Part shown: positions 4,046 to 12,219 of the stretch, piece after piece | How the letters are laid out: every line of letters begins with the position of its first letter | Position numbering within the stretch: position 1 is the stretch's first letter | Source of the DNA: Blastocatellia bacterium | Lineage (GTDB): Bacteria; Acidobacteriota; Blastocatellia; Pyrinomonadales; Pyrinomonadaceae | Length of the DNA: 35,156 nt | Reading direction: 5' to 3' | NCBI GenBank assembly: GCA_013697915.1 | Contig: JACCVY010000213.1 | Location: 1 to 35,156 of the forward strand | Made by a program: the position numbers and the translations under genes | Notes under the pieces: model-generated | What the model saw: the letters and a program-made list of their open reading frames with translations, nothing else | Told to the model about the DNA's origin: nothing | Database searches by the model: none

Positions 4046-4750
4046 ATGAAACGTGCCCTTCCTTTTTTGATTATCGGAACTGTGCTTGTCATCGCGGTGG
4101 TGGCGGCGTTGTATCTGAAGCGCTCGGCGAGTGCTCCAGTTGCGCCGCCGGCGCCCGCTCGCGAATCACCGGCAGCAAGCAATGGAACTACGAAAAGCAA
4201 CGAAAATGCCGCTGCTGACATGGGAGCCAATCCGCCGCACACTCATGGCCCGGCAGATGCGCCGGTTACGCTTGAAGAGTTTGGCGACTTTGAGTGTCCG
4301 CCGTGCGGCCTGCTTCACCCCATCCTGCAAACGATGGAAAAGGAATTCAGCGGGCGCATTCGCATAGTCTTCCGCGAGTTTCCGCTCGTGCCGACGCACG
4401 TGCATGCGCTCGCCGCGGCGCGCTCGGCGGAAGCGGCGGGGTTACAGGGAAAGTTTTGGGAGATGCATGATTTGCTTTACGAGAATCAAAAGACCTGGCA
4501 TGACGCGTTCGATGCGCGTCCGATCTTTGAAGATTACGCAACCAGGATCGGATTGAACATGGAACAATTCAGGCGCGATAGCTCGGGCGAGATCGTCGCG
4601 CAGCGTATTTTTCTCGATGGCAAACGCGGCCACGCGATGGGAGTGAATGGGACACCAACAGTTTTCATGAATGGCCGCGAACTGCCGTTTGAATCGCTGG
4701 CGGTCGACAAGCTGCGCGCGCTGATCCAAGCGCAACTTAACGCGAAGTGA
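4046..4750 (+). CDS. DsbA-family thiol:disulfide oxidoreductase, membrane-anchored
   Basis: 234 residues. An N-terminal hydrophobic segment (about 4-24) acts as an anchor or uncleaved signal. A Pro/Ala-rich linker (25-65) then leads to a DSBA/thioredoxin_4 domain. The active site is C84-P-P-C87 in DFECPPCGLL. The cis-Pro loop is GVNGTPTVFMNG near the C-terminus, and the inserted helical domain (WEMHDLLYENQKTW region) is typical of DsbA. It should oxidise cysteines of exported proteins. The next gene encodes a VKOR protein, the usual electron acceptor for such DsbA partners. The start is set at ATG 4046, preceded by GGAAG; ATG 4013 in frame would add 11 polar residues before the anchor. Confidence 0.9.
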   Translation: MKRALPFLIIGTVLVIAVVAALYLKRSASAPVAPPAPARESPAASNGTTKSNENAAADMGANPPHTHGPADAPVTLEEFGDFECPPCGLLHPILQTMEKEFSGRIRIVFREFPLVPTHVHALAAARSAEAAGLQGKFWEMHDLLYENQKTWHDAFDARPIFEDYATRIGLNMEQFRRDSSGEIVAQRIFLDGKRGHAMGVNGTPTVFMNGRELPFESLAVDKLRALIQAQLNAK

Positions 4751-4775
4751 TCTGACTTGGCACCAGGTAATCGCC

Positions 4776-4934
4776 TGGCAGTGAGGTTTGTACCAGCGCA
4801 GTGAGGTCAGTACCGCCTGCGGTAGCGGGTGGGTTCTTAGCCACAATCACAGTTCTCAATTCCAAGCGATAGTGTGGCAGTGAGGTTTGTACCAGCGCAG
4901 TGAGGTCAGTACCGCCTGCGGTAGCGGGTGGGTT
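4776..4934. repeat. Two identical 60-nt direct repeats, 99-nt period
   Basis: Positions 4776-4835 and 4875-4934 are identical over 60 nt, beginning tggcagtgaggtttgtac and ending gtagcgggtgggtt, with 39 nt of unrelated sequence between. On the minus strand they translate to NPPATAGGTDLTALVQTSLP, a spurious peptide I associate with acidobacterial genomes. They fill the gap between the DsbA-like and VKOR genes. The second copy covers a potential GTG at 4928 that would otherwise be the longest VKOR start. Confidence 0.9.
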
Positions 4935-4981
4935 ATCTTCTTTACGCGTCACCATCCAGCAGTCGTACTCAATCAATCTTT

Positions 4982-5434
4982 GTGAGCAACCCGCCCGATA
5001 CTTCTCAACCAATTCAGACGCGACGCCGCACACTGCCTTACGCTTTCGCCGCGCTCGTTTCCCTCGTCGGTCTTGCCGATGCCATCTATCTCACCATCGA
5101 GCATTTGTCAGGCCGCAGCGTGCGCTGCACGATCGTTAGCGGTTGTTCGGAAGTGTTGAGCAGTGAGTATGCGACGGTGCGCGGCATCCCGCTGGCAATG
5201 GTGGGTGCCGCGGCTTACTTCACAGTTTTTAGCCTCGCGGTCCTTGCAGCTTACAGTTACAAATGGGCCGCCAAATTGTTGATGGTGGTTGTGGGTCTCA
5301 TGTTCATCACCACCATCTGGCTGCTTTATCTCCAGGCATCCGTCATCAGACACTTCTGCCAGTTCTGCCTCTTGTCCGCGCTTGTCACTTTTGTTTTGAC
5401 AGTTCTGATTGTGATCTCACTTCGCAAACGCTAG
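4982..5434 (+). CDS. Vitamin K epoxide reductase (VKOR) family protein
   Basis: 150 residues from GTG 4982, an integral membrane enzyme that reoxidises DsbA-type proteins and passes electrons to quinone. There are four hydrophobic helices (about 20-40, 70-92, 97-117, 128-147). The loop cysteines C49 and C55 (VRCTIVSGC) and the CXXC pair C126-Q-F-C129 at the start of the last helix form the expected redox relay; SEVLSSEYATVRGIPLAMVG is the conserved post-loop region. The frame is open to a GTG at 4928, but that lies in a repeat copy, so 4982 is preferred although its ribosome-binding site is weak. It is a stand-alone VKOR, not fused to thioredoxin; the upstream DsbA-like gene is the likely partner. 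Confidence 0.92.
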   Translation: MSNPPDTSQPIQTRRRTLPYAFAALVSLVGLADAIYLTIEHLSGRSVRCTIVSGCSEVLSSEYATVRGIPLAMVGAAAYFTVFSLAVLAAYSYKWAAKLLMVVVGLMFITTIWLLYLQASVIRHFCQFCLLSALVTFVLTVLIVISLRKR

Positions 5435-6954: not shown

Positions 6955-9234
6955 ATGGAACAAATCACGCCCGAAGTAATCGCCGCTCATAATCTCACCA
7001 CCGAAGAGTTTGATCGCATCAAGTCGCTGCTGGGGCGCGAGCCAACGTTTGTTGAGCTGGGCATCTTCTCGGTAATGTGGTCGGAACATTGTTCCTACAA
7101 ATCTTCGCGAATACATTTAAAGCGGTTGCCAACCACTGGCGAGCGCATCGTTGTGCCGCCTGGTGAGAATGCGGGCGTAGTCGATGTTGGCGACGACTGG
7201 TGCGTAGCTTTTAAAATCGAATCCCACAATCATCCGTCATTCATTGAACCGTTTCAGGGCGCGGCCACGGGCGTCGGCGGCATTTTGCGCGACGTGTTTA
7301 CCATGGGCGCGCGGCCAATTGCCTCGATGAACAGTTTGCGTTTCGGATCGTTGGACCATCCACAGCATGGGCGGCGAAATCGTTCGTTGCTCGCCGGAGT
7401 TGTCGGCGGCATTGCGCATTATGGAAATGCGTTCGGCGTTGCTACGGTCGGCGGCGAAGTTGCATTCGATGACGCCTACTCGCTCAATCCGCTGGTGAAT
7501 GCGTTCGCGCTGGGAATACTGAAAAGGAATCAAATCTTTTTTGGTAAGGCGACGGGTGTCGGCAATCCGATTCTTTATGTCGGCGCCAAGACCGGACGCG
7601 ATGGGATTCACGGCGCGACCATGGCCTCGGCAGAGTTTGATGAAGAGGCATTGAAAAAACGTCCCACCGTTCAGGTTGGCGATCCGTTTTTGGAAAAGCT
7701 TTTGCTCGAAGCGTGTCTCGAGGCAATGCGCAGCGGCGCCGTCGCCGGCATTCAGGACATGGGCGCTGCGGGTTTGACTTCATCCTCGTGCGAAATGGCC
7801 TCGCGCGCGGGCACGGGCGTGGAGATCGATCTGACTTTAGTGCCGCAGCGTGAAGCGGGCATGACGGCTTACGAGATGCTGCTCTCTGAATCGCAGGAGC
7901 GCATGCTGATCGTGGCCCACGCAGGTCGCGAGCGCGAGGTCGTCGACATTTTCCGCAAGTGGGATTTGGATGCCGTCGTCATTGGCCGCGTTCGTGAAGA
8001 GTCGAGGATGCGCGTGCTCCATAACGGCGAAACCGTTGCCGACATTCCGGTGGCCGCGTTAACTGATGAAGCGCCGTTGTATGAACGGCCCATGAAAAGT
8101 CCCAAGTCTCAAGTTTCAAGTCCCAAGTTCAAAGAACAAAGTACAAAGATCAAAGTTCAGAACTATGACGATGCACTGCTAAAGTTATTAGCTTCTCCGA
8201 ACCTCGCTTCCAAACAATTCGTCTACCGTCAATACGATCACATGGTCCGCACCAACACGGCGGTGCTGCCGGGTGCCGATGCTGCGGTGTTGCGCATAAA
8301 AGAAACACGACGCGCACTGGCGATGACGCTGGATGGCAACGGCCGTTATTGCGCCGCCAATCCCCGCGAAGGCGCAAAGCTAATTGTTGCCGAAGCAGCC
8401 CGCAACGTCGTTTGTGTCGGCGCGCGACCATTGGCCATAACAAACTGTCTGAACTTCGCATCGCCGGAACGGCCTGAAGTGATGTGGTCCTTCTCGGAAG
8501 TTATTGATGGAATGGCCGAAGCTTGCCGTGCATTCAACACGCCAGTTGTTTCCGGCAACGTTTCGTTCTACAACGAAACCGAAGGCCGCGGCATTCTGCC
8601 GACACCGGTGATTGGCATGATTGGCCTGATGGAGGACGTACGTTTGGTGGTCCAACCGGGATTCAAACAACCGCATGATCTAATCGCATTGTTGGGCACG
8701 ACTGCTGACGATCTTTCCATCAGCGAGTACGCCGCCGTGATTGATGGCATGTCTACAGCGGAAATGATTGCCAACGGTGCGGTGCCGCAGATCGATCTGG
8801 AGGTTGAGCGCGCAGTGCAGAACGCATGCCTGGCAGCCGCCGAAGCGGGTTTGCTCGGTTCGGCTCACGACTGTTCTGACGGCGGTTTCGCGGTGGCGCT
8901 GGCGGAATGTTGTTTCTCTTCACTGAACCGCCCGGGGCTGGGCGCTAATATTTCTCTACGCGACGCGCTTCCTGTTACCCTCGCACTCTTTAGCGAATCA
9001 CCCTCGCGTATCATCATTAGCTTTGCCGCCGCCGCGCAAGCCGAGATCGAAAACATCGCGCAGCGCGAAAATTGTCCGCTCGTATTGATTGGTGAAGTGA
9101 GTGATGACGTGCTGCAAATAAAAGTCGGGGATGAGAAAGTCGTATCCGCCAATATTGCAGAACTGGAAAACGTCTGGCGCGGCTCGCTTCCGAAAAAACT
9201 TGAAGCTGAAGTTATGGCGGCGGGGCGGGAATAG
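6955..9234 (+). CDS. purL: FGAM synthase, large subunit PurL
   Basis: 759 residues, the small-type PurL that works with PurS and PurQ; it uses ATP and ammonia to make FGAM from FGAR. It has two tandem AIR-synthase-like halves. Landmarks are [11 protein letters not shown] (active-site His near 43), [41 protein letters not shown], the second-half ATP region [27 protein letters not shown], and [14 protein letters not shown] near the C-terminus. Residues about 381-403, in the linker between halves, are Lys/Ser/Gln-rich and are encoded by a low-complexity repeat (8098-8163) that looks like an in-frame insertion. ATG 6955 follows a hairpin with no visible Shine-Dalgarno. Confidence 0.97.
8098..8163. 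repeat. In-frame CAAGT/CAAAG low-complexity repeat inside purL
   Basis: A run of short related words (agtcccaagtctcaagtttc, then caaag variants) lies in the purL frame and encodes about 22 Lys/Ser/Gln/Val residues that break otherwise conserved PurL sequence in the inter-half linker. Base use is sharply different from flanking codons. I interpret it as a dispersed repeat inserted without disrupting the frame. Confidence 0.75.
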
Positions 9235-9523: not shown

Positions 9524-10375
9524 ATGCACCCGGTAATTTATCTCAACAAAGTAATGCTGGAGGCGACCAAGGCGCGCGTAGCGCCAGTGTCGTCGGCAAT
9601 GTTGTACGGTCGCGGCGTGTTTACCACGGTTGCGATCTACAACGGCAAACCGTTTCTATGGTCACAGCATTGGGAGCGACTGAAGGACCATGCAGAGCGT
9701 CTGAACATCGACTGTGCCGGCGCAAACGAGCGCAATGTTGGTGAAGCAGTTAGAAAGCTGGTGGCTGTCAATCAGGTGAAGGATGGACGCGCGCGTGTCA
9801 TTCTGCTGGCGCGCAGCGGGCGTGACGTGTGGCGAGCACAAAAAGAAAGCACGCGCAAAACCGATCTGCTGATTATGACCAGCGAAGCCCAGAAGATTTC
9901 CCGTGCGGGTTTGTCGCTGGCTGTTTCGCCTTATCGTTCCAACACGTTTTCGCCGCTGGCCGGCATCAAGAGTTTGAATTATCTCGATCAGGTGCTTGCG
10001 TGGGAAGAAGCGCAGGCGCGCGAGTTTGATGAAGCAGTGATGCTCAACGAACGCGGCGAAATAGTTTCCGCCACCATGGCCAATATTTTCTGGGTTAAAG
10101 AAGGAACGATTCACACGCCGGCGCTGAGCACGGGCGCACTCGCCGGGGTTACGCGCGGCGCCGTCATCGAGTTGGCGGCTAAAAACTTCATCCCTTTAAT
10201 CGAAGGCGTGTACGAGTTGGCTGACCTTACGGAAGCCGAAGAAATATTTTTGACTTCCGCCAGTTACGGCGTGGCCCCTGTGACTACTTTCGACTTTCGC
10301 CAGTATTCGCTTGCCGCGGAAAGTGCCAGCTCCAGGCTTGCTGCGGGGCTCAAAAAGCTCACCTCTGAAACTTGA
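9524..10375 (+). CDS. Class IV PLP aminotransferase-like protein, altered active site
   Basis: 283 residues, fold-type IV, the family of branched-chain aminotransferase, D-amino-acid transaminase and aminodeoxychorismate lyase (PabC). Conserved elements are YGRGVFTTVAIYNG (28-41), the phosphate-binding Arg52 in HWERL, the Schiff-base lysine K149 in AGIKSLNYL, and the C-terminal EEIFLTSASYGVAPV. The glutamate that normally contacts the PLP ring nitrogen, five residues before the Asn of the NIF motif, is Ser182 here (GEIVSATMANIFW). The fold call is secure, but the substrate is not predictable. It has no visible Shine-Dalgarno; a repeat ends just upstream. A second in-frame ATG is at 9553. Confidence 0.85.
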   Translation: MHPVIYLNKVMLEATKARVAPVSSAMLYGRGVFTTVAIYNGKPFLWSQHWERLKDHAERLNIDCAGANERNVGEAVRKLVAVNQVKDGRARVILLARSGRDVWRAQKESTRKTDLLIMTSEAQKISRAGLSLAVSPYRSNTFSPLAGIKSLNYLDQVLAWEEAQAREFDEAVMLNERGEIVSATMANIFWVKEGTIHTPALSTGALAGVTRGAVIELAAKNFIPLIEGVYELADLTEAEEIFLTSASYGVAPVTTFDFRQYSLAAESASSRLAAGLKKLTSET

Positions 10376-10635: not shown

Positions 10636-12219
10636 ATGCGCGAGCAATTACATACGGCTATTCCACGAACCGCAAAAGCGCGTAAGCGTGTGCTGGTAGT
10701 GAACTGCTATTTTGACGATTCGCGGCAGCCCATTCGTCGCACTACCAAGATTCCCCAGGCAGTCGGTCCGATTTATCTCGCCGGCGCTTTCGCGCGCGAG
10801 CGGTGCGATGTTCGCTGCTACACCGAACTGGCGAGCGGCCCGCTTGAAGATGAGCAGTTGCTCTCGTGGCCTGACATGCTGGTGCTTACGGGGCTGACAA
10901 ATAGTTTTGATCGCATGCTGCATCTCACCGCGTATGCGCGCAGCAAGAATCCCAAAGTCATTGTCGTTGCCGGTGGTCCATCTGTACGTTCGCTGCCGCT
11001 GCTTTCCCAAAAAGTTTTTGACTATGTTTGTCTCGGCGACATTGAAGAGCTGTGTGAAGTGGTCACGGAAGCATTCGGCCCGGAGTATGTGGCCGAGACA
11101 ATGATTCCGCGCTATGACCTCGCCTACTGGCTGGGCCGCATCGGTTACGTGGAAACGACGCGCTACTGCAACTTTCGTTGTTCGTTCTGTTCGTTGACGG
11201 CTGAAGGTCGCGGTTATCAGACCTACGATCTGGATTACATTCGCCAACAGATTTTGGCGTCAGGCAAACGCAACCGCATGTTCTTTCTCGATAACAACTT
11301 TTACGGCAGCGATCGGAATCACTTCAAAGCCAAGCTGAACTTGATTAACGAAATGCGCGCGGCGGGTCAGTTTAATCAGTGGGGCGCGTTGGTTACGAAT
11401 GACTTTTACGCGCGCGATGAGAACTTGCAGTTAATCAGAGAGGCCGGTTGCGAACTGCTCTTCAGCGGCCTGGAGTCGTTTGACAACGATTGGCTGCGCA
11501 ATTTCAATAAGTTGCAAAACACAAGAGCGCCGCAAGTCGAGATGATCAGCAAGTCGCTTAACGCGGGCGTTGTTTTTTCTTATGGCTTGATGGTGGATGT
11601 CACCACGCGCAGCCTTTCAGATCTGCGCCGCGAGCTGAATTTCATTACCGCCACGCCCGAAATCACTGTCCCTTCGTTTGTGACGTTGTCGATTCCGCTT
11701 TTGGGCACGCCTTATTTTTACGAGTGTTTGCAGAGACGCAGCATCCTGCCAAACACCAAATTGCGCGACATGGATGGAACAACAATTCTACAGCACCCGG
11801 TGGACCCGATTGATGAAGTCGTGAAGTTTGTTGATGACATCCAAAGTATGAAAGGTTTTCACGGCCGCGTGGTGAAGCATGCGGCGCGGTTTGCGAAAAT
11901 TTATCATTCAAAACTGACGAAGATGCAGATGATACTGGCGGTCGGCGCCGGGCTGCTGGTTTGCGCGCAGCCACTGACTACTTCATTTACTGGATTTGGC
12001 TGGGCAAAGAAACGACCGCGGCCGCGCACTTACATCAGCACCACCGAGCCATTGGACCACATGTACACGCCGGCCTTTCGCGTGGACTCGCGTTTCGAGA
12101 GTTACTTCCAACCGACAATGGTGACTGATGCCGAAGGAGAGCTGCATGAAGACATTCTGACGTCAGGGCTGCTGAAGAACACAAACATCGCGGAACGTAC
12201 CGTGGCGCAGGCGGTTTGA
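10636..12219 (+). CDS. Radical SAM protein with B12-binding-like N-terminal domain
   Basis: 527 residues. The N-terminal Rossmann-like region (about 17-150) resembles the cobalamin-binding domain of B12-radical SAM enzymes: VLVVNCYFDD, AVGPIYLAGAF, DMLVLTGLT, VVAGGPSVRSLP, DYVCLGDIEE. The usual DxHxxG cobalamin-ligand motif is not seen. The [4Fe-4S] motif is C178-x3-C182-x2-C185 in TTRYCNFRCSFCSL. The barrel continues to about 400 (FFLDNNFYGSDRNHF, LLFSGLESFDNDWL), and about 120 C-terminal residues contain a hydrophobic helix near 430-450. The reaction is unknown: families of this layout methylate, cyclise or modify lipids and cofactors. It runs convergently to the acyl-CoA synthetase, with a terminator hairpin between. 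Confidence 0.85.
   Translation: MREQLHTAIPRTAKARKRVLVVNCYFDDSRQPIRRTTKIPQAVGPIYLAGAFARERCDVRCYTELASGPLEDEQLLSWPDMLVLTGLTNSFDRMLHLTAYARSKNPKVIVVAGGPSVRSLPLLSQKVFDYVCLGDIEELCEVVTEAFGPEYVAETMIPRYDLAYWLGRIGYVETTRYCNFRCSFCSLTAEGRGYQTYDLDYIRQQILASGKRNRMFFLDNNFYGSDRNHFKAKLNLINEMRAAGQFNQWGALVTNDFYARDENLQLIREAGCELLFSGLESFDNDWLRNFNKLQNTRAPQVEMISKSLNAGVVFSYGLMVDVTTRSLSDLRRELNFITATPEITVPSFVTLSIPLLGTPYFYECLQRRSILPNTKLRDMDGTTILQHPVDPIDEVVKFVDDIQSMKGFHGRVVKHAARFAKIYHSKLTKMQMILAVGAGLLVCAQPLTTSFTGFGWAKKRPRPRTYISTTEPLDHMYTPAFRVDSRFESYFQPTMVTDAEGELHEDILTSGLLKNTNIAERTVAQAV

Follow-up and report, generated by a model that had tools for sequence, protein, structure and literature searches.

To our knowledge, protonation of the pyridoxal phosphate (PLP) ring by a carboxylate is regarded as near-universal among fold-type IV enzymes; PLP enzymes of other folds operate with Ser or Arg at the ring nitrogen (N1). 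In the fold-type IV case, an excerpt of PMC12429042 describes an N1 glutamate that stabilises the protonated ring and is paired with a second-shell Arg and Asn. In the aminodeoxychorismate lyase (ADCL) PabC the N1 contact in four solved structures is Glu, or Asp in T. thermophilus, according to the relevant part of PMC3174152, in which the reaction is described as passing through an external aldimine, removal of the C4 proton and departure of pyruvate. For Rv0812 (M. tuberculosis), BsDAAT and PaADCL, the core residues quoted in an extract of PMC8105722 are K149/K145/K140, E182/E177/E173 and R50/R50/R46, and the same extract assigns both ADCL and D-amino-acid transaminase (DAAT) chemistry to the single class IV site of Rv0812. 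The engineered D-AAT mutant E177K is reported to be impaired in coenzyme anchoring and catalysis (as cited in PMC12723384).

The window, that is the whole stretch of 35,156 nucleotides analysed here, belongs to an assembly (G000) that is 97.4% complete. It carries a class IV gene in which we examined the following positions:

9524–10375, + strand: PabC-lineage class IV (fold-type IV PLP) protein of 283 aa, recognised by Aminotran_4 (PF01063), with TIGR03461 as best NCBIfam model
9626–9628, + strand: Thr35, at the place of Thr28/Thr29 in E. coli/P. aeruginosa PabC, for which a catalytic role has been proposed; replaced by Ile in genome G086
9677–9679, + strand: Arg52, phosphate-binding arginine (R50/R46 equivalent), kept
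9935–9937, + strand: Arg138, putative second-shell arginine bracing the N1 glutamate, assigned by aligned position
9968–9970, + strand: Lys149 (codon AAG), Schiff-base lysine by alignment; Arg in six congeners
9986–9988, + strand: Asp155 (Lys149+6), candidate compensating acid from residue counts, unproven
10067–10069, + strand: Ser182 (TCC), where the alignment places the glutamate that contacts PLP N1

Aminotran_4 is the sole Pfam domain of this ORF (8.3e-51, 173 bits), so the protein has the fold-type IV PLP domain expected of a PabC. The top NCBIfam model, TIGR03461 (pabC), gave 164.4 bits and was missed at its cut-off of 176.85, as were all other equivalogs, among them those for PabC (PRK06092, 158.3 versus 260; PRK07650, 156.8 versus 308). 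Transaminase models were far from their cut-offs (TIGR01121, 110.1 versus 277.45; TIGR01122, 127.9 versus 245.55; PRK08320, 156.7 versus 363). The AlphaFold model had a mean pLDDT of 33.

With E. coli (1et0) and P. aeruginosa (2y4r) PabC the window protein has in common the fold, Lys149 (in the context AGIKSLNYL), Arg52, Thr35 at the proposed catalytic threonine, and His49. The hallmarks F33-T34-T35, H49, R52, G208 and R211 are all retained. Tyr28 stands at the place of Rv0812 Arg26, as in Y22-type lyases, and relatives of the gene adjoin pabB, a further likeness to PabC. At the core sites of Rv0812, BsDAAT and PaADCL the protein carries K149, S182 and R52. Numbering of Rv0812 matches directly (K149, position 182, Tyr153), but Rv0812 has Glu182 and Arg26 where the window protein has Ser182 and Tyr28. 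In the HMMER alignment with E. coli PabC the stretch is gap-free and places the E. coli glutamate at Ser182, which lies in VSATMANIFW, 5 residues ahead of Asn187. The residue at N1 is thus neither the Glu or Asp of solved PabC nor the glutamate of D-amino-acid and branched-chain transaminases, and no PabB was found in the window genome. D-AAT E177K is a laboratory change at the residue equivalent to Ser182, whereas the change seen here is natural. The window protein descends from PabC and would work like it; since the N1 acid is absent and the equivalog cut-offs are missed, we do not claim confirmed membership among aminodeoxychorismate lyases, and its lyase activity is putative.

The N1 position across Blastocatellia

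Orthologues were searched in 162 genomes of the class (E up to 1e-25) and were present in 108, which were aligned with one row per genome. Position 182 was Ser in 77, Gly in 19, Ala in 5, Cys in 3 and Glu in 4. The N1 glutamate is therefore missing from 104/108 in-class orthologues, replaced by a small residue in every case. The Glu rows were L048, L075 and L076 from family f3 and L067 from f8; none of the 96 Pyrinomonadaceae rows retained Glu. The earlier note had inferred from the window alone that Ser182 replaces the PLP-ring glutamate while Lys149 is intact, and had named Glu-keeping homologues as the sign of an isolated mutation. Alignment bore out both residues, and the close homologues proved to be Glu-less. 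An isolated mutation, or a sequencing or assembly error, is ruled out by the 104 Glu-less orthologues and by Ser182 being encoded by differing codons in different genomes.

Outside the class, Glu occupied the N1 place in 20/20 relatives (20 fetched of 27 matching genomes in a 396-genome phylum sample), and also in pabB-linked class IV genes of Azospirillum (two records) and Bacillus (one). It is likewise retained in a fused PabBC found in congeners. The PabC domain of this fusion, a presumed ADCL, is of the Aminotran_4 type like the window protein and about 21–27% identical to it over the aligned part, but has Glu at N1 and an HKTT-type lysine in 8/8 cases, in contrast to Ser at N1 in the window. 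A quick-search tree of 125 rows, with SH-aLRT support only, requires no fewer than three switches between having and lacking Glu, and 21 when the individual residues are told apart. In Pyrinomonadaceae and in a second family, f9, Ser, Gly, Ala or Cys has taken the place of the ring-nitrogen carboxylate. A limited literature search found, among the matches listed, no loss or change of the N1 glutamate.

The Arg138 place was Arg in 4/4 Glu-bearing in-class rows and in 63/104 Glu-less rows, a frequent loss that is expected if the Glu partner is gone. Among candidate compensating acids, residue 155 stood out most: it was acidic in 94% of the 104 Glu-less rows, in 0/4 Glu-bearing in-class rows and in 15% of the 20 outside rows. 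It was not accepted as compensation, since E. coli PabC has an acid there together with its N1 Glu and some Glu-less rows have none. An acid at residue 155 goes partly with Glu loss, and no acid clearly stands in for Glu. The Arg37 place was Arg in 19/20 outside rows and Ala in 80/104 Glu-less rows; by the alignment, substrate binding has probably changed too.

These positions bear on whether the protein might instead transaminate D-amino acids or branched-chain amino acids, with its cofactor in an altered state. The fold is identical, and the site of Rv0812 combines ADCL and DAAT chemistry (PMC8105722, in part). However, the N1 Glu, Arg37 and the Rv0812 Arg26-type residue (Tyr28 here) are all lost, scores are far under the transaminase cut-offs, and six congeners have Arg at position 149, which makes this reading highly improbable. 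Aminodeoxychorismate lyase chemistry, rather than transamination, is the better reading, in line with one suggestion of the earlier note.

Locus history and 4-aminobenzoate supply

The gene lies between two neighbours on the same strand:

6955–9234, + strand: purL, the ancestral upstream neighbour, from profile match and mapping onto relatives' loci
10636–12219, + strand: B12-binding radical SAM protein, the downstream neighbour, from profile matches

A pathway shared with the radical SAM protein, as the earlier note had proposed, could be imagined from the 260-base distance, the common strand and the recurrence of the pair in G086 (L034/L251). That genome is the only one among six others with enough downstream sequence; the radical SAM gene was not beside the orthologue in the remaining five, namely G100 (91% identical), G092, G044, G090 and G093. 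The partnership was rejected, and we regard a shared pathway as hardly credible. The earlier interpretation thus stood for the Glu replacement, Lys149 and lyase chemistry and fell for the radical SAM partner; it did not contain the purL-pabB-pabC history, the missing PabB or the loss of Lys149 in congeners, described below.

Mapping of the loci gave the old gene order thioredoxin-like, TlpA-like, purL, pabB, pabC. Upstream of the thioredoxin-like gene, at 4737–5033 on the − strand of the window, a spurious ORF contains the peptide NPPATAGGTDLTALVQTSLP repeatedly, which suggests that a DNA repeat lies there. In eight Pyrinomonadaceae genomes (G021, G023, G025, G028, G038, G039, G040, G041) pabB is upstream of a Glu-less gene, and in two outgroups (G131, G154) of a Glu-bearing one; the PabB of G023, G028 and G154, the three scanned, passed the TIGR00553 cut-off. 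This places the gene in the PabC (aminodeoxychorismate lyase) lineage: an ancestral cluster of Blastocatellia (Acidobacteriota) consisted of purL, pabB and pabC, and the window gene is its pabC member. Within the window's genus most loci have purL a short way upstream of the class IV gene (another gene intervenes in G100), and no pabB remains between the two; in the window this slot, between 9234 and 9524, is empty. The simplest order is that Glu loss preceded pabB loss, and relatives have a Glu-less protein alongside an ordinary pabB. In five f9 loci (L043, L049, L051, L061, L068), inspected by eye, the PabC-lineage gene follows a small 4HBT thioesterase-like protein and has a CoA-binding-like protein downstream.

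PabB absence was judged by PF00425 counts. G000 has a single chorismate-binding protein, with 485 bits for TrpE (under that model's cut-off) versus 299 for PabB. This TrpE-type protein has PIAGT, which we take to be the TrpE-type motif, where PabB has PIKGT, presumably the PabB motif; in genomes outside the NCBIfam scan, TrpE and PabB were told apart by E-value or by these motifs alone. By PF00425 count and model scores, PabB was not found in the window's assembly, and DHPS is present. The same genome has a CADD-family gene, split across two contig ends (C150 and C110) that have 127 identical bases in common. CADD-type genes are also found in G100 and G092, and the G100 orthologue matches CT610 (1rcw) at 6e-51 with Tyr27 and Lys152 matched, residues that CT610 spends in making 4-aminobenzoate (pABA), as stated in part of PMC11965152. 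CADD-type 4-aminobenzoate synthases were seen at L225–L229, L255 and L256, in Pyrinomonadaceae genomes without PabB including the window's. The PabB-less state together with a CADD-type synthase makes the class IV gene look uncoupled from folate in G000.

The fused PabBC is present in eight genomes (G044, G088, G091, G093, G095, G096, G097, G099), at loci L180, L183, L184, L185, L186, L188, L190 and L192, with complete-looking frames of 573–612 aa. In G086 and G090, no PabB, fused PabBC or CADD-type gene was found; DHPS is present, as fragments in G086. The stand-alone class IV gene occurs in all genomes of this comparison of CADD, fused and neither, except G088. Among 69 high-quality Pyrinomonadaceae genomes, 16 were counted as PabB-less, of which 14 had one protein scoring as TrpE and two had no such protein; G004, G024, G064 and G066, whose single match is PabB-like in score or fragmentary, were left unclassified. 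Of these 16, ten retain the gene, in each case without Glu, and the other six, all members of genus g29, have no copy, so the gene is dispensable in some settings. In f9, PabB is missing in 5/7 genomes and the gene is kept in 7/7. These losses are inferred from MAGs, and assembly gaps may hide PabB.

Other relatives retain PabB. In eleven PabB-bearing genomes of genera other than the window's (G057, G060, G068, G072, G077, G081, G082, G083, G019, G020, G041), and likewise in G039 and G028, the class IV genes are this gene and one of IlvE size; in G045 the PabC-lineage gene is the sole one, and G059 has two further genes of IlvE size. No match to a fused PabBC was found in these PabB-bearing genomes, which, judged by gene content, would have no other dedicated PabC. 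IlvE-type enzymes may nevertheless serve as lyases there, which counts against the main reading below.

The window protein could also still be a dedicated aminodeoxychorismate lyase that tolerates Ser182 and is fed by TrpE or by an unassembled PabB. Lys149, Thr35 and Arg52 are intact, TrpE is homologous to PabB, and in f9 (genomes 92–100% complete) the gene is retained alongside a single protein scoring as TrpE in 5/7 cases. Yet the TrpE-type protein has PIAGT where PabB has PIKGT (the motif meaning being assumed, as above), the window genome has a CADD-type synthase, and congeners keep the gene with Arg149, one of them also with Ile35. We consider it rather unlikely.

The reading we find reasonably probable is that of an ancestral pabC that lost the N1 Glu, acts as a lyase where pabB remains and has taken a PabB-independent role in the window's lineage. 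In genomes that still have pabB, the protein without Glu would probably be a working aminodeoxychorismate lyase: the substrate's C4 amino group would form an aldimine with PLP, a base would take the C4 proton, and pyruvate would leave as the ring becomes aromatic. As this lyase reaction has no 1,3-prototropic shift, a weaker electron sink than in transamination may suffice. In the window's lineage, PabB would be gone, with 4-aminobenzoate probably supplied by the self-sacrificing CADD-type synthase. The window protein, its phosphate-binding residues intact, would most likely have been retained to bind PLP in a role independent of PabB, either as a low-demand lyase or as a ligand-binding or regulatory protein. 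We infer both this present role and lyase activity without Glu from comparison of genes and genomes; the persistence of Glu-less orthologues where no PabB was found could also mean that this form has had another function all along.

Lys149 and selection on the gene

In sister lineages the Schiff-base lysine itself has turned into Arg. Lys149 is replaced by Arg in 6/108 in-class orthologues, corresponding to 6/15 rows of genera g1 and g22 (L005 in G086, L007 in G091, L008 in G094, L010 in G090, L011 in G096, L012 in G095). At least two changes were counted on the tree, and the Arg codon is AGG in G086 and AGA in the other five. In G086, moreover, Ile replaces the putatively catalytic Thr35.

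Selection was estimated by pairwise Nei-Gojobori dN/dS. The ratio was 0.098 (95% 0.055–0.150) between G000 and G100 and 0.097–0.160 in the K149R clade, with upper bounds below 0.25 and open frames; the closest pair, G091-G094, gave 0.183, and some pabB-linked or g23 pairs 0.17–0.27. The PabC-lineage gene is under purifying selection. These low ratios indicate that it is not drifting freely, although as a lyase it seems superfluous, or unable to act, in several of the genomes concerned.

Such values argue against a decaying relic of folate synthesis left after PabB replacement, as the 0.097–0.160 range comes from pairs now PabB-less or with the fused form. Moreover, Lys149 aside, only three cells of the six Arg149 rows are changed across the columns that the Glu-less family conserves. 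The missing PabB, the loss of Lys149 in six congeners and of Thr35 in G086, and the absence of a copy from the six PabB-less g29 genomes fit decay, which we nonetheless hold to be quite unlikely. A further, tentative possibility, which we hold less likely than not, is that the PabC fold of the window's genus has moved off Schiff-base PLP chemistry and that the protein, kept beside purL, binds PLP or another ligand in a regulatory role or in a different catalysis. Such a shift, after Glu loss and uncoupling from PabB, would make the lysine dispensable in at least two lineages with the remaining pocket still selected.

Taken together, these results describe three pABA routes in one bacterial family: pabB-pabC, fused PabBC and CADD-type. 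The K149R lineages form a natural gradation between a presumed lyase and a protein lacking the Schiff base, and the natural class-wide Ser/Gly/Ala/Cys group, set beside its Glu-bearing pabB-linked relatives, provides a test of which reactions need the N1 acid.
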